Origin: Moringa oleifera
Lineage: Eukaryota > Streptophyta > Magnoliopsida > Brassicales > Moringaceae
Assembly (NCBI GenBank): GCA_021397835.1
Contig: JAJFZO010000287.1
Coordinates: 1,118,501 to 1,182,500, forward strand
Direction: 5' to 3'
Length of the DNA stretch: 64,000 nt
Within the stretch, counting starts at the first letter, position 1, and every line of letters starts with the position of its first letter. The translations under genes were made by a program, and so were the position numbers. Shown one piece after another: positions 906 to 59,985 of this stretch. The notes beneath the pieces were generated by a model. The model worked only from the letters and a program-made list of their open reading frames with translations. It searched no databases and was not told the origin of the DNA.

Positions 906-3480
906 TCATCTACTAAAGTTTGTGAAAGAGGACTGAGAGTGGCTTCCACCTTTGTAATAGTACGGGTTTGGACACGTTAACCTGTTATGTCCATATTGGC
1001 CACACTTAGAGCACCTCTTTTGACATGTCCTCTCCTCACCTGATGGTATTCGTTGCTTCCTTAGATGACCTGCTGGCTTCCTATTATTAGGTGGTAAAAC
1101 CACAACCCTTTTGACTTATTCAGGGACATTCCAATCAGATCTATCACCAACCAGATAAATCGGCTCTGCATATGCTGTCAATAGGTACTCATGTTTGTAG
1201 CAGTCAGAGCAAAAGGTTATGAAATCAATGTTACGTTCCCTACGAACAACAAAAATTAGTGAAGTTACAACAACACAAAACCATGAAAAATAAAGGTATT
1301 AGCAGCAAAATAGACAATGTTACCTAGAATCTGCTAGTGCATGTGTATAAGGCAAAAAATCAGCTTGAAACTCCCTACATGTGTAAGTAGGTTCCATGAG
1401 GTTAACAATTGCCTCTTTACCTTTGTGGTTAACCAGAAATATATTCCAGTCAACATTGGAAGCTATCATTTGCAATGAAGTTTTTTGTTTTTCGGTCATC
1501 AATGAGTGGATCCATTTTGTTAGGTGTGATCTCCAAGCTTTGGCTTTCTCGCATCATTCATAAAATCAACGTTGCACCATATCTTTAATGAATTCCAATA
1601 AAACCATGACGGGTAACTCACGAGCAAATCAAAGACATGAATTCAAGCTCTCAGCAACGTTGGTCATCATGAGTTGGTATCGTCTCCGAGGGTGATACAC
1701 ACGTGACCATTTTTTAGGATATTCCTTCATGATATATTCGAAAGCTTTAGGGTAATTAGCTTAGAACTCAATCATCAACTTATTAAAATTTAGATTCCTT
1801 ATATGCCTTAGTAGCATTATAAAAAATCTTAGATACACCTTTTTTTTTTTGAATTAATTTTTTATGTTCTGGGCCATATGCCAAGAACATAATCCATGAC
1901 AAAAATCGGGAAAGACCTTTGCAGTGGCCTTTTGCAATACAACATGACGATCTGATATAATAACCAAGTTCTTCGCCGTACCAATTACTTCTTTCAACTG
2001 CCCTAAGAACCACTATTCTCTGAGTCACCATAACCGAATGCTAGTGGATATATCTGTTCATTTCTATCTTTGCATGCCACTACAAATATTACACCATGGA
2101 ACTTCCTTTTCAAATGAGTAGCATCGATAGCATTGATTGGTCGGATCACTGAATGAAAGCCTCTCAATGATGGATCAAGAGCCACAAAAAAATACTTAAA
2201 TCGATTACTCCGTTCTTCTATGCATATGTGAGCCTTAGTTTCTGGATTAACTGTTTGTAACATATGACAATATGACAGTAATTGTTGGTATGACTCAACT
2301 GGATTACCATATGCAAGAGACAATGCATGCTCTCTAGCCTTTCACGCTTTACTATATAAAATTTGTATGCCATATAATTCTTTCATATCGCCCATGATGT
2401 CTTTTGGCTCAATGATTCTAGCATTAGTAGACAACCTCTGACCCATAATTTCTCCAATAATGGCTGAACTTGCTTGCTGATGCCGTCGATGTAATTCTTC
2501 AACTGTGCAAGTATGTGTCAAATCATATCGTCTAATTTGAAAGAATTGTCCTTGTACAATTCTCACGGCATGAACCTTCCATGCATAATTTTTTTCTCTA
2601 CAAGCAATCTCAAACAATGATTTATTAGACCTAATAAATCTAAATTCAAAATACTCAGTCAATGCATGCACTCCTAAAAATCGTTTTATCTCAGTTTTAT
2701 TTGAAAAAAACTGACTTCTAGTAAGGGAGTGAATCAGAGTCATTGATTTCGTAGTAGGAGTTGGAACAATACTATATAGTTCAACACCCAACACACTATA
2801 CCTTCTACCAAGACCATAACTTGATTTATTATGTACTTTAGGGCATGCAGGCAGGACATAAGGTGGGATATGATGTAAGTTTTCATTAAACTCTTCATTG
2901 TCGAGTTTCACTTTTACAATGGGTTCATATTGATCTTCACTAGTATGCTGACTTTTTTGGATTGGATATTCACATCTAACATCATAATCCATCGGCCCAT
3001 CCGAGTTGATCTCATCAGTATGTTGAGTGTCATAGGGATTCACATTATGGATGAATGGTTATGTGCAAAAATTTTCACCTTCAACAGTTGGATTGCTCCC
3101 AGTACAAGAATTAAAAAAATTAATTCGTCCTACAATTCCATCATCATGTACACTTCGTCTATTCTCAATAAAATTTTCCTCCATTAAATCAACAATTACA
3201 CGGGGAACCATATTGTCATCATACAACATAAACTCAACATCATCGTCATTGACTAACTTAATTTTAACAGCAGTATTTTTAGATCTTACTATGGTGTGTA
3301 GTGCAATATCAGTGTTAGAGAAATCAACCTTCACATAAGATTTAACCAAATTCAACCACTCTACATACGTCAAACCCCTCTGAACAACATACTACTTGGT
3401 TTTGATAGCTTTGCCAGTATACTCAAAACTCCATCTTGACTCAAACTAATCACAATTTCAAGTTACAATGATCTGCATTC
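906..3480 (-). pseudogene. MuDR/MULE transposase, broken
   Basis: This is a cut-and-paste transposase of the plant MuDR class that would act in the nucleus. Reading from 3480 down to 906, the parts come in family order. First is an N-terminal segment (3373-3059). Next is a MuDR DNA-binding region with a C..C..W..H..C arrangement (about 2700-2480). The MULE catalytic domain (2323-2003) contains 'FKYFFVALDPS', 'IDATHLK' and 'ACKDRNEQIYPLAFG'. Its continuation, with 'VIISDRH' and 'GLCSWHMAQN', is in another frame at about 2010-1860. A SWIM-like segment follows (1502-1320), then a CCHC knuckle 'CSKCGQYGHNRLTC' near 1010-960. Damage includes in-frame TAA at 3059-3061, TGA at 2342-2344 (where relatives usually have Trp), a frameshift near 2010, and loss of SWIM zinc ligands ('YTCREFQ', 'PYTHA'). 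It is not functional. Confidence 0.85.
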
Positions 3481-23234: not shown

Positions 23235-23546
23235 ATGTCCTCACTTGGTGCTATATATCTAAAGGATCATAGAGGCATGAAGGCAACAATCACCAAGCTA
23301 AACCATCAAACCAAAATGAGAACTTTTTACGTATTGAGTTTTCTTGTTGCTATGGTACTGGTATTTGGGTCGAGCTTATCTGCCCATGCTAGAGTATTGA
23401 ATGACATGAAGACGGGAGTTATGGACTTGTCCAATTCAAAGCTAAACATTGGAATACTACCAAAGGACCCTCTTCCTCCATCGGTACCAAGTTGTGGTGC
23501 ACCAAGACCCTGCACTCCAACTGAATCTCCTGACGGCCTTGCGTGA
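23235..23546 (+). CDS. IDA-like secreted peptide precursor (single core)
   Basis: The 103-codon frame encodes a probable prepropeptide of the IDA-like type: small secreted ligands sensed at the cell surface by HAESA-class receptor kinases and best known for triggering organ abscission. A signal peptide starts at Met28 (23316) and runs 'RTFYVLSFLVAMVLVF...SAHA', with likely cleavage after Ala52. ATGs at codons 1, 15 and 28 are possible; Met28 gives the cleanest signal peptide, though Met1 and Met15 are kept in the duplicated copy. The core 'GILPKDPLPPSVPS' (residues 73-86) matches the IDA pattern G-x-L-P-K-x-x-P-x-P-P-S-x-P-S. It continues with Cys87 and Cys93 and a 10-residue tail. IDA peptides normally end in a basic 'KRHN'-like tail without cysteine, so this tail is unusual. 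There is no intron. Confidence 0.75.
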   Translation: MSSLGAIYLKDHRGMKATITKLNHQTKMRTFYVLSFLVAMVLVFGSSLSAHARVLNDMKTGVMDLSNSKLNIGILPKDPLPPSVPSCGAPRPCTPTESPDGLA

Positions 23547-36187: not shown

Positions 36188-36499
36188 ATGTATTCACCTG
36201 GTGCTGTATATCAAGAGGATCATACAAGCATGAAGGTAACAATCACCAAGCTAAACCATCAAACCAAAATAAGAATCTTTTATGTATTGAGTTTTCTTAT
36301 TGTATAGTACTGGTATTTTAGGTTAAGTTTATTTGTCCATGCTGGAGTATTGAATGACATGAAAGCTGGACTTATGGAGTTATCTAATTCAAAGCTAAAC
36401 ATTGGAATACTACCAAAGGTCCCTCTTCCTCCATTAGTACCAAGTTATGGTGCCCCAAGACCTTGCACCCTTATTGAGTCACCTAGTGGCCTTGCATGA
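36188..36499 (+). pseudogene. IDA-like peptide precursor, pseudogene of the 23235 gene
   Basis: It has the same 103-codon length as its partner. A one-base deletion and a nearby one-base insertion scramble the signal peptide and create an in-frame TAG at 36305-36307 (codon 40). The codon-28 Met is Ile. The rest stays in frame and still reads 'GILPKVPLPPLVPS' in the core, but Ser-Val has become Leu-Val and the first Cys is Tyr. Without a signal peptide it cannot be secreted. Reading on from the stop gives no Met with a usable leader. Confidence 0.8.
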
Positions 36500-47050: not shown

Positions 47051-47977
47051 AGAAAAAGCTCTAATTTTGAAGTCAACATTAGTTCTCAAGAAATCAATAA
47101 TACTGAATGATATATGTGCATTTTATTGATGTTTAAAATGATGATCTTGACCTAATAGAAGCATTTATTTTTATAGCAGAGTTTAGAGATATTTATGATT
47201 TCTAAACACATATAATAAGATGTAAGGAATAAGTTCGAAGAAAATCATTTCAATGAGATATTTCACCGTAGGCTAACTAATTAATAGTTGAGCATCTTTA
47301 TGATTTCCTAGCATCTTGTTATACTTGGGTTGAGTTTGACATGGACACATTTATTGGTCTAAGCTCATTATAGTGACCAAGTTGGCCAGTCTAATTTGGT
47401 TCAATAAAATTGATTTTGATGTGGCTTTTTCTGATTGATTGTGAAAGATTTAATTCAAGTGTCAACATACATCAATATTGTATTTTTTAAAATAAATTAT
47501 TTTACATATAGATTAAATCAAAATCTTAATTATTTATTTTATTAAATTATTATGTGTTAATATTTATTTAAAAGTGTAACTCCATTTAAGTTTTTATTTA
47601 TTCTATTGAATTATTATATGTTAATATTTATTCAAAAACTTAAATTAGCAAAAATGGGAATTCATTGGATGGATGCATAAAGCGCCTTAAAATGGCAATT
47701 ACACCTAATGGATATAAATATATAGTAACATATAAAACCAAAAGAGAAAGTCAATTATGAAGAAGGTCAACGAATATCACAATTTACGGAATTAAGACAA
47801 AAGTCTGATCTCACCATAGAGCACAAAGATTTATTACCATTTAAAGAGAAAAAAAATGGAAGTAGAAAACTGGTGAGCATGCATTTTCCTAATACAGCAT
47901 AAACAGGCATTTATGTACCTTCCATAGAATAATATAATATAAAGGAGGATCCCTTGGTATGGAGCACAGACCCCAAA

Positions 47978-48430
47978 ATGGAAGGAAACAGAGGGAAGCG
48001 ATCATGGGTTATGAGCTTTGCTGTTGCAGTAATGGTGTCCTTCTTCTTCAGCTCGTCAGCAGATGCCAGAAAGTTAGCTGATCCCTTGAACTTCGGGATG
48101 CTACTAAAGGGGCCGGTTCCTCCGTCAGGGCCTAGCCATGGTACTCCACCGATGAGGTTTGGGATGCTTCCCAAGTTTACACCACTGCCTCCATCAGGGC
48201 CTAGCCAACGTCAGCCACCGATTATACCGCCACCGCTGCGGTTTGGGATGCTACCTAAGGGAGTGCCGATTCCTCCGTCAGGACCTAGCCAACGTCAGCC
48301 ACCGATTATACCGCCGCCGCTGAGGTTTGGGATGCTACCTAAGGGAGTGCCGATTCCTCCGTCAGGACCTAGCGTCGGGGGTACACCAGATCCACCGCTC
48401 CAACCTCTGAAACAAGGCTTTTCTAATTAA
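47978..48430 (+). CDS. Multi-core IDA-like secreted peptide precursor (four units)
   Basis: The intronless 150-residue precursor starts at the first ATG, 47978. The frame extends upstream only to a non-ATG codon. A signal peptide covers residues 1-30, with hydrophobic 'WVMSFAVAVMVSFFF' and likely cleavage after 'SADA'. Four IDA-like cores follow: 38-53 ('FGMLLKGPVPPSGPS'), 60-76 ('FGMLPKFTPLPPSGPS'), and 88-104 and 116-132 (both 'FGMLPKGVPIPPSGPS'). Units 2 and 3 are each followed by 'QRQPPIIPPPL', which spaces units 2-4 at 28 residues. Arabidopsis IDA carries one such core ending in a basic 'KRHN'; here 'QRQ' takes that place, and the last unit runs into 'VGGTPDPP'. Known family members act in the apoplast on HAESA/HSL receptors; that role here is inferred. 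Processing into several peptides is likewise inference. Codons are intact and the gene looks functional. Confidence 0.85.
   Translation: MEGNRGKRSWVMSFAVAVMVSFFFSSSADARKLADPLNFGMLLKGPVPPSGPSHGTPPMRFGMLPKFTPLPPSGPSQRQPPIIPPPLRFGMLPKGVPIPPSGPSQRQPPIIPPPLRFGMLPKGVPIPPSGPSVGGTPDPPLQPLKQGFSN
48089..48373 (+). repeat. In-frame tandem repeat encoding four peptide cores
   Basis: Units 3 (from 48239) and 4 (from 48323) are in-frame copies 84 bp apart, with nearly identical core DNA from 'ggtttgggatgctacctaag' to 'ccgtcaggacctagc'. Units 1 and 2 are more diverged. The pattern suggests an old array that recently gained one 84-bp unit. Confidence 0.9.
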
Positions 48431-52499: not shown

Positions 52500-53690
52500 G
52501 CATTATAACTGCACTTGAAAATATGTTTTTAGTCAAAGTCAATGATATCTTGATATTGGATTGATCTACTATGAGAACTTGGTCAATTATATTAGGATTA
52601 AGTTTATTTTGATGTGAGATCAAAGTTAATCACATCTGAAGTTCGATTAGTCTAATGTGAGCACTTAGTCAATCATAATAGGATTGAATTAGTTTTAATG
52701 TGAGAACCAAATCAATCACATTTGAAATCAGATTGATCTACTATGAAAACTAAGTCAATCAGATTTGGATCAAATTAAATTTGATGTGAACAAAGTCAAT
52801 CACATCTAATAAAAAAATCAGTGTAAGAACAAAGTCAATCACATCTAGTAAAAGATTGATCTAATGTGGGAACTAAGTCAATCACATTTAGATCAATTTA
52901 AATTTGATGTGAAATCAAAGTTAATCATACTTGGTAAAAAACTAATATAATATAAGAACTTAGTCAATCATATTTATATTAATTTAAATTTGATGTGAGA
53001 TCAAAGTCAATCATATGTTGTATAGGACTGGAGATGAAATTTAATGTGAGATCAAAGTCAAACGCAATTGAAATTATATAAGATTTGTAACTCGATGTGA
53101 GATTGCATGTAATTACATTAAGAATTATACTATACCTATAGCCCAGTGTGAGGTCAAAGTCCACTACCTTGGGAGTCAACACCTATAACTCGACATGAGA
53201 TTGAAGTCCATCACATTAGGAATAAATTGGATCACATTGGGAAGAAAATGATATGAGAGTAGAATCAATCACATCAAAAAGAAAATTACGTAAATATGAT
53301 AGTAGAGTCAATCACATCGAGAACAAAATGATGTGAATGCAAATTCAATCATATCAGGATAAGCATGGGAAGTCTTCAAAAATGTAGTCCTAAGCTGACA
53401 TTGAGATATACTTATGAATTTACTTCTGACCTAACTTCGGAGTATCTTTATTATTCTATTCTCAAGCTTATGTCAAAGTATATTTATCATTCTACTCTCG
53501 ATCTTACATCAGGACGTGCTCATTATTTTTTTCCTAACCTAACGTTGGGAAGTGCTCATCATTCTATTCTTAACCTGACATCAGGGCGTGCTCATCATTT
53601 TACTTTCGACTTGATATCAAGGTATGCTCATCATTCTACTCCTGACCTGACAATGAGTGTGTTCATCATTTTAAGCCTGACCTAATATTG
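52500..53690. repeat. Degenerate minisatellite, two unit types
   Basis: From 52500 to about 53350, variants of 'agtcaatcacat' alternate with 'gatgtgagatcaaag' at roughly 45-65 bp spacing. From about 53390 to 53690 a second unit of about 45 bp, 'ctcatcattctactcttgac' plus 'ctgacatcagggcgtg', repeats about six times. The repetitive 106-codon frame at 53365-53685 is a by-product of this array and not a gene. It lies downstream of leader repeat copy 5, so it may be internal non-coding DNA of that element. Confidence 0.75.
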
Positions 53691-57125: not shown

Positions 57126-59985
57126 AGAAAGCTCTAACATTGAAGTCGACATTAGTTCTCAAGAAATCAATAGCATGAGTGATACATTTGCATTTTATAG
57201 ATATTTAAGATGATGATCTTGGCTTGATAGGAGCATTTTTTTTATTTATAATGGAATTTATAGATCTTTATAATTTTTTCTAGCATGCATAATTAAAAAG
57301 ACATAAAGAATAAGCTTAAAGAAAATCATTTTAATGATATATTTCACCATAGTCTAGTTAATTAATAGTTAAGCATCTCGTTATACTTGGGTTAAGTTGA
57401 CATGGAGACATTTATTGATACTTGCTCACTATAGTAACCAAGTTGATCAATCCAACTTGCCCCAATTGATTTTTATGTAACTTTTTCTAATTGATTGGGA
57501 TAATTCACATATCAACATGCATAGATATTATACTTTTTATCATAATATATTTTTTTGAAATAAAATTATTTTATATGTAAAGTAAATTAAAATCTTAAGT
57601 ATTTATTTTACTAAATTGTTAGATGTTAATATCTATTTAAAAATTTAACACAGTTTGGATTTTCATGTATTTTATTAAATTATTATATGTTGATATCTAT
57701 TTGAAAACTAATTAGCAAAAATGGGAATTCATGGGGATGCATGCATAAAGCACATTAATATGTCAATTACACCTAATGGATACAAATATTTAGTAAAATT
57801 TAAAACCAAAAGAGAAAGTCAATTATGAAGAATGTCACGAAGATCACAATTGAAGGAATCAAGACAAATGTCTGATCTCATAATAAACCATAAAGATTTA
57901 TTACCATTTAAAGAGTGAAGAGCGATAATATAACATGAAGAGCGAGGATCCATTGGCATCAAGCACAGACCTCCAAAATGAAAGGAAACAGAGAGAAGCG
58001 ATCATGGGTTTTGAGTCTCGCTGTTGCAGTAATGTTGTCATTCTTCTTCAGCACGTCAGCAAATGCCAGAAAGTTAGCTGATCGTTTGAACTTCCGGATG
58101 CCACCAAAGGGACCGGTTCTTCCATCAGGGCTGCCTAGCCCGGCTACTCCACCGATGAGGTCAGGGATGCTTCCCAAGTTTACGCCACTGCCTCCGTCAG
58201 GGCCTAGCCAACGTCAGCCATCGATTATACCTCCGCCGCTGAGCTTTGGGATGCTACCGACGGGAGTGCCGATTCCTCCTTCAGGACCTGGCCGCGGGAT
58301 AAACCAAATCCACCGCTCCATGCTCTGAGCAGACAGGGCTTTTTCTAATTAATTGTCTCATTCTCACAGACCTTGTTCTTTCTCTAATAATGTTTGTGCA
58401 ATATCTTACGTTATAAATATTATAAATTATTGTTTTTTCTTATGAAAAAGAAATAGGAAATGGATGAGTTTCTCTCCTTTCATTTATGCACGGTGAATAT
58501 ATCCAAGTAATTTAGCAAAAATTTTCTTACGCTAAAGAAAAAAGAAACCCGTTTTCAAGTTTTTTAATTTTTTTCTGGCTTTTTTTCAAAATACCTTTTT
58601 AATTAAATTCACCTGATAACTGTGAATTTCAACCTATATCAGATTTTGGTCTCTCCCTTTGGCTTTGTGGTCTCAATTTACCTACTTTGTCGTTTGCAAT
58701 TTAGCAAAAATTCTCCAAGTTTTGACGATACTTTCTTAACGAAGTCACCTAGCTATGGATCTCAATTTGTATTAGAACTTGGCAGCATGGCTAAGTAATA
58801 ATAAGAACAAGATATCATATTCTACAACAATTTCGGGGGATATTTAAAAAGGATCTAAGCTTATGATCAATATCCTCGTTTGATTTCAATTGGTGTTGGA
58901 TTTTTATTAAAATATTAAAAATATTTTAATAATTTAATATAGTAATATATTAATATAAAATATAAAAAAATTAAATTATTAATTTTATTAAATTATTACG
59001 TGTTATTATTTTATCAAAGATTAATACAGCTCAGATGAATAAAAAAATTTAAGTCAAATCTATAAATTGATATTTCATGAAGTTTTCAAAAATTAATGTC
59101 TATGTTTAATTTTTACGATATCTTCATGATTCAACGTCAATAAATTTATCTTGAATTATTGCTTTTATAATATCTTTATTTCTTCTTTTCAGCCACATTC
59201 AAGAATGGAATGATGAAAAACGAGGACTAATTTAAATTGTGTTTTTACTTTGTAGTAATGGTGATGAACTAATCAAGAGCATACATAAAAAGTTAACAAG
59301 AATATATTAAGTAAATTAAAATATTTTTATGAAATTATGATTTATTTATTTTTAAAACAAAAAAATAATTTTTAATTTATCAAATTAATAAAATAAATAA
59401 TTAAATTTATTTTATTAAATTATCATATATCATTATTTCTTAAATATAAATAAAAATTATTTAACAATATATAAATTTTTTATATAATAACTAAAGTGAA
59501 TATATATATATATATATAATAAAATCAAATACTTTTTACAATATAAACACATCATTTAAGATCATATATGCTCTTCTTAAATCAATCAACAACTTTAAAA
59601 AATATTTAAATAGATCTTAATTTATCGAAAATAGTGAAATTAAATTCTCTGTTAACAAAATTTTCATGATAATATCACAAATTGGAGATTTGATGAGGGT
59701 GAAAATGGCATATTAAGAAAATTTAAAAAAAAAGTAAAAAGAGAAGTCTTTAACCAATTGATTTCCACAAATTTTCACCAACCCCTTTTCAAAACTCTCT
59801 CTTTGCAATTTCTAGAGTGATGTTCCGTACTTTTATCGCCTTCTCTAGGAGGCATATTCAAAGTGAAAGAATCTAACATGTTTAGTCTTTTTATTACTAA
59901 GAACTAGACATATGAAGAAGAATAAAAGAGTCCAAGCAAAGCCCATTTATCTCTAACAATTAAGGAAGCGAGATGCATAGTCAAC
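57125..59985 (+). repeat. Segmental duplication, copy D
   Basis: Direct repeat of copy C (47050-49630). Its right end nearly coincides with the start of a copia LTR at about 60007, so that element may have landed in or next to the duplication and cut the alignment. Confidence 0.85.
57978..58328 (+). CDS. Multi-core IDA-like secreted peptide precursor (three units, altered C-terminus)
   Basis: This is the 116-residue paralogue of the 47978 gene, with the start ATG at the same relative place. The signal peptide (residues 1-30) is nearly identical, ending 'STSANA'. Three cores follow: 38-54, degenerate ('FRMPPKGPVLPSGLPS'); 63-77, intact ('GMLPKFTPLPPSGPS'); and 90-105 ('FGMLPTGVPIPPSGPG'). In the last core Lys is replaced by Thr and the final Ser by Gly. 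One 84-bp unit is absent compared with the paralogue. A one-base deletion just after the last core (near 58298) shifts the frame, giving the tail 'INQIHRSML' and an early stop. The middle core could still give the same peptide as unit 2 of the paralogue. It may be functional or an early pseudogene. Confidence 0.7.
   Translation: MKGNREKRSWVLSLAVAVMLSFFFSTSANARKLADRLNFRMPPKGPVLPSGLPSPATPPMRSGMLPKFTPLPPSGPSQRQPSIIPPPLSFGMLPTGVPIPPSGPGRGINQIHRSML

Follow-up and report, generated by a model that had tools for sequence, protein, structure and literature searches.

The Moringa oleifera locus described here raises the question of whether one secreted plant precursor could deliver several peptides resembling IDA, the hormone of organ shedding, and whether such a design is exceptional. 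The window, i.e., the whole stretch of 64,000 nucleotides that was analysed (G000:C24:1118501-1182500 within a 279.5-Mb assembly), contains an open reading frame with its ATG at 47978 and its stop at 48428-48430, and a related gene downstream. The features of both are as follows, with the evidence in brackets.

47978..48430, + strand: four-core precursor gene, 150 amino acids plus stop (open frame and homologues)
47978..48067, + strand: signal-peptide-like region, residues 1-30, then Arg31 (hydropathy; SADA followed by R)
48089..48136, + strand: core 1, NFGMLLKGPVPPSGPS, tail HGTP (27.4 bits; residues 38-53)
48146..48397, + strand: three in-frame 84-nt units, units 2-4 (in-frame repeat)
48155..48205, + strand: core 2, RFGMLPKFTPLPPSGPS, tail QRQP (26.2 bits; residues 60-76)
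48206..48238, + strand: linker QRQPPIIPPPL between cores 2 and 3 (sequence)
48239..48289, + strand: core 3, RFGMLPKGVPIPPSGPS, tail QRQP (39.7 bits; residues 88-104)
48290..48322, + strand: linker QRQPPIIPPPL between cores 3 and 4 (sequence; 24 nt of DNA identical to the preceding linker)
48323..48373, + strand: core 4, RFGMLPKGVPIPPSGPS, tail VGGT (39.7 bits; residues 116-132)
57978..58328, + strand: decaying paralogue of three units (core scores of 6.3, 21.9 and 29.1 bits)

The original prediction of IDA-like cores, four in one frame of 150 residues behind a signal-peptide-like start, was borne out. Hydropathy alone gave a peak at residues 13-24, with SADA before Arg31, and the four cores scored 26-40 bits with a core profile HMM, compared with a best score of 7.1 bits among 1560 shuffled proteins, which rules out a chance origin of the cores. 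The HMM was built from 40 segments, some of them taken from the four-core protein, which raises the scores of that protein slightly. Across the 279.5-Mb genome, a degenerate 20-mer for PxPPSGP found 17 sites versus 3 for its reversed control; of the 17 sites, the four-core ORF contains four and the paralogue two, and multi-core queries of this genome returned these two genes as its multi-core members. Pfam and NCBIfam scans of the four-core protein and selected relatives, with a Pfam set that did not contain PF27884, gave no relevant family, a PDB sequence search with the four-core protein gave no match, and Rfam gave none anywhere in the window. A 40-codon upstream ORF at 47959-48081 (+) overlaps the four-core start out of frame, and its ATG is absent at the equivalent position of the paralogue. 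Judging from the sequence, we hold it slightly more probable than otherwise that the gene encodes a secreted precursor belonging to a class related to IDA, in which an SGPS core is repeated two to five times with proline-rich linkers. Such a four-core precursor could release four different SGPS peptides.

The gene had been taken to be exceptional, a view that its homologues contradict. A protein search with the four-core protein yielded 42 homologues; its own protein is missing from these matches, which we count against the precursor reading. A profile search yielded 232 homologues, the best 120 of which include all 42. With a core cut-off of 8 bits, which exceeds every shuffled protein, at least two cores were present in 96 of the best 120 of 232 (48 proteins with two, 35 with three, 12 with four and one with five, the other 24 having one), a proportion that is evidence of breadth and not of frequency, because the multi-core search profile favours such proteins and the count covers the best 120 of 232. 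All homologues with an organism name come from plants, and multi-core relatives are present in eudicots as well as in the monocot Dioscorea (core counts by genus: Tripterygium, Celastrales, 4; Cinchona, Gentianales, 5; Cardamine, Brassicales, 3; Dioscorea, Dioscoreales, 2), ruling out a multi-core gene peculiar to Moringa oleifera. In the 66 proteins with at least two complete segments, core identity averaged 0.78 within and 0.60 between proteins, and tail identity was 0.55 within versus 0.29 between, the pattern that constraint on the cores and renewed duplication of units would produce. The accession PF27884 is precomputed on IDA-named proteins, on 107 of the best 120 of 232 homologues and on all 31 homologues of a single-core gene (L003), and is unmentioned in the literature searched. 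We conclude that a multi-core class with two to five repeats of the core and proline-rich linkers is widespread and apparently undescribed. The proteome check attached to the original prediction, on whether multi-core precursors are common and already catalogued, thus came out divided: they are common, and they are catalogued solely under automatic or misleading names and PF27884.

Several homologues carry source names such as proline-rich or extensin-like, which brings up an alternative, namely that these are structural proline-rich wall proteins whose repeats form an uncut hydroxyproline-rich rod, the likeness to IDA being due to descent only. SPPPP is an extensin motif, and extensins are defined by SPPPP together with YxY. 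Proline accounts for 30% of the four-core protein after the signal peptide, and SPPPP occurs in 41 of 121 class proteins (the best 120 of 232 homologues plus the four-core protein), which counts against the peptide-precursor reading. However, the four-core protein has no SPPP, let alone SPPPP, and no YxY, 150 residues and four motifs would make for a short wall rod, and the residues held between distant proteins are F, G, M/L, L, K, S and G of the core, not prolines alone. We regard a wall protein as unlikely.

The original prediction also had the gene releasing near-identical IDA ligands, which the tails do not support. Cores 3 and 4 are the sole pair that matches over FGMLPKGVPIPPSGPS; taken as 12-residue stretches from PxPPSGPS onward, the four cores give four different sequences, none of them ending in HN, and plain multiplication of the IDA dose is ruled out by these tails. 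Directly after SGPS, where Arabidopsis IDLs have [RK][RK]HN (PMC4526919; this and the other papers are cited from excerpts of their text), the four-core protein has HGTP, QRQP, QRQP and VGGT, and cores 1 and 4 lack even the Arg at +2. The lead FGxLPKGVPIPPS is the same as that of IDA, and the core kind common to both, FGxLPKGxPIPPS[AG]PS, is present in full in cores 3 and 4 and with changes in cores 1 and 2. The likeness may extend to the start of the protein, where the signal peptide of IDLs is followed by a conserved Arg (PMC4526919) and the signal-peptide-like region here by Arg31. An IDA survey curated its hits to fewer than 120 residues, a C-terminal motif and HN, and states that the short IDA motif does not resolve phylogeny (PMC4627355, in part); the four-core gene departs on each point, with four cores in 150 residues. 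By its sequence, the gene is thus not a canonical IDA/IDL gene, differing in its ending (no HN), in motif placement (not C-terminal) and in length, whereas its kinship to IDA stands, as read from the lead and the Pfam accession common to the homologues.

Single-core ORFs elsewhere in the genome have the tails SKRHN (two), SRRHN and SKRIN, and two weak genomic matches (L004, L006) contain no PPSGPS-like ORF. The homologues of L003 have one core in 31 of 31 cases and all end in xxHN (KRHN in 30, NRHN in one). The 120-protein set yielded 278 cores above 8 bits; tails were scored for the 234 that had an SGPS anchor, the other 44 being set aside. The xxHN ending was found in 15 of the 234 tails, in 14 proteins, three of which (P0097, P0116, P0119) are single-core. 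The tail x[RK]x[ST] was seen in 93 of 234 and an xG start in 54, with GxGH in none, and proline makes up 55-75% of positions +7 to +10. The multi-core and L003 groups have the lead and SGPS in common, and their endings are mostly different. Six proteins (P0059, P0071, P0074, P0080, P0100, P0101; the named ones from Prunus and Malus) have HN endings such as KGHN, GRHN and RTHN, with more than one core in two of the six at 8 bits and in four at 6 bits; they may stand as intermediates between IDA and the class with RTS tails.

The endings matter for receptor binding. Loss of Asn69 or addition of SFVN stops HAESA from binding IDA, and HAESA-SERK1 binding depends on the ending Arg-His-Asn, which SERK1 reads (PMC4848090, in part). 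The C-terminus needed by HAESA is missing in all four cores, which we count against the precursor reading; the mature peptides would either be read otherwise or not act through HAESA. A changed receptor preference has a precedent, as HSL3, a relative of HAESA, reads a different peptide family, with no detectable IDA binding in the published excerpts (PMC9191895).

Other SGPS-type genes were noted alongside. A second small family has the core LPKDPLPPSVPS followed by two cysteines (CGAPRPC) at 23235-23546 (+) and 36191-36499 (+) of the window and at G000:C24:393095-393346 (-); one copy is open and two matches contain a stop, and the cysteine spacing is 5, versus the 9-11 used for CTNIP peptides (PMC9191895, in part). 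An ORF with RGPVPPSGPSGCTNIPGTGGPGC (L013; G000:C2:1394249, -) contains the letters CTNIP and ten residues between its cysteines, and is likely, by sequence, a gene for CTNIP, the HSL3 ligand, with an SGPS lead. Two related ORFs (L028, L029; G000:C583) end in VPPSGPS[PS]C[TS]YIGN...GHGGHC, combining SGPS, GH and two-cysteine features.

The units were compared with those of the paralogue, which starts exactly 10,000 bp downstream of the four-core start, within a duplicated segment. Its first core is degraded (6.3 bits), its third core (29.1 bits) has LPT in place of LPK, and its tail does not share the frame of the four-core gene. Between the two genes (window 52559-52998) lies a repeat array with a spacing of 43 nt, and pieces of a MuDR/MULE transposase lie at 2003-3043 (-), with PF10551 below and PF03108 above the cut-off. 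Over the 60-nt core, unit 2 is nearest to unit 2 of the paralogue (4 differences) and unit 4 differs from the paralogue's last unit at 5 positions; unit 3 differs from unit 4 at 2 and from the paralogue's last unit at 7. The 24-nt linker of unit 3 is identical to that of unit 2, the paralogue's linker differing by 2, so that unit 3 equals the core of unit 4 joined to the linker of unit 2. Of the constant linker in a constant frame claimed originally, the frame was upheld, with units 2-4 recurring every 84 nt. The comparison of units suggests that the constancy of the linker is largely recent DNA duplication, and selection was rejected as its main cause. The decaying three-unit paralogue 10 kb away implies an ancestor that was probably three-core, and in the simplest history a later in-frame unequal exchange, probably recent, added the fourth core; alternatively, a unit may have been lost in the paralogue, with gene conversion between units 3 and 4.

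A recent exchange product beside a decaying paralogue would also suit a relic, i.e., a duplicated, non-expressed or decaying member in which the fourth core is neutral repeat expansion. After the signal peptide, the two genes differ by dS 0.36 and dN 0.17 (small counts), a ratio of about 0.47, which is weak constraint, and the coding region (identity 0.88-0.89) is no more alike than upstream positions 47600-47799 (0.88-0.91); both points count against the precursor reading. In contrast, the frame of the four-core gene is open with all four cores intact, and two or more cores are retained across the best 120 of 232 homologues as described above. Just 2 changes, both synonymous, separate the core of unit 3 from that of unit 4, and units 2 and 3 differ by dS 0.79 and dN 0.18 over 60 nt (small counts); such comparisons within the gene point to a purifying signal on the cores, from few changes. 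A relic appears distinctly improbable to us.

Background on IDA suggests how a secreted IDA-related precursor might work. IDA is cut near the Lys-Gly of LPK-G, and of the 278 scored cores, 158 have K-G and 20 have R-G as the Lys/Arg of LP[KR] and the residue that follows it. By analogy with IDA, the four-core protein would be secreted, its core prolines and probably its linker prolines would be hydroxylated, and proteases of the apoplast, for instance the subtilases SBT4.12, SBT4.13 and SBT5.2, which release IDA (PMC11371470, in part), would cut beside the cores. Several short peptides would then result from one precursor and might be perceived by a HAESA/RLK7-type LRR receptor kinase; as the HN ending is absent, a different receptor preference or C-terminal cut is expected, not simply more IDA. 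That the chain instead stays uncut as one multivalent ligand, its cores acting jointly on clustered receptors, fits cores placed in one chain with short linkers and has a parallel in two-motif PIP precursors, for which two released peptides and a single joint unit were both raised as hypotheses (PMC4526919, in part), but the failure of SFVN-extended IDA to bind HAESA argues against an uncut core for that type of receptor (PMC4848090, in part); we take this option to be very improbable.

It is tempting to take the secreted-precursor reading further, to a tentative proposal with somewhat less than an even chance of being right: that SGPS hormones include, besides IDL and PIP, a third class still without a name, whose multi-core precursors in rosids, asterids and Dioscorea would give several peptides each, and in which a tail with x-R-T-S-D as its commonest residues, followed by prolines, would replace RHN, a new receptor or co-receptor mode would be used and copy number would change through unequal exchange. 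If the class is real, candidate ligands from many plants, including crops, have escaped IDA surveys that filter for HN and for a motif at the C-terminus, and the changed endings provide a natural means of testing how ligand C-termini are read by HAESA-type receptors and SERK co-receptors.

The ligand motifs of CLE and CEP differ from the IDA-like core; to our knowledge, PIP and PIPL precursors lack the FGMLPKG lead, and HypSys has no sequence relation to the four-core precursor. Multi-ligand precursors are described for PIP, CEP, CLE and HypSys, and none was found for IDA-related peptides. As originally predicted, no description of multi-core IDA-like precursors turned up in the literature searched, subscription papers lying mostly outside the search, and the excerpts of PMC12903503, PMC8847575, PMC10704477, PMC13091385 and PMC3624929 contain no multi-core IDA precursor; one of five motif strings gave an exact literature match, to a paper on a nematode IDA mimic within whose text the string was not located. 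Multi-domain CLE, CEP and PIP precursors, which likewise repeat a ligand motif, have been reviewed (PMC9532867, in part); the same excerpts describe two multi-domain wheat proteins assigned by a predictor to IDA and CLE, with motifs that the authors judge CLE-like, and multi-domain CLE (TDIF-like) genes whose heterologous expression did not enhance activity. The SGPS core is shared with PIP/PIPL, and two SGPS motifs occur in Arabidopsis PIP2, PIP3 and PIPL1 (PMC4526919, PMC4154866, in part). PIP/PIPLs, however, end in GxGH (PMC4526919), and membership of the PIP family was rejected, as this ending is absent from the four-core protein as well as from the 234 homologue tails. HypSys precursors resemble the four-core gene in carrying several short peptides each, with six from one sweet-potato precursor (a title cited in PMC11756074, in part). 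If it is cut, the class would by analogy work most like HypSys or the two-motif PIP precursors.
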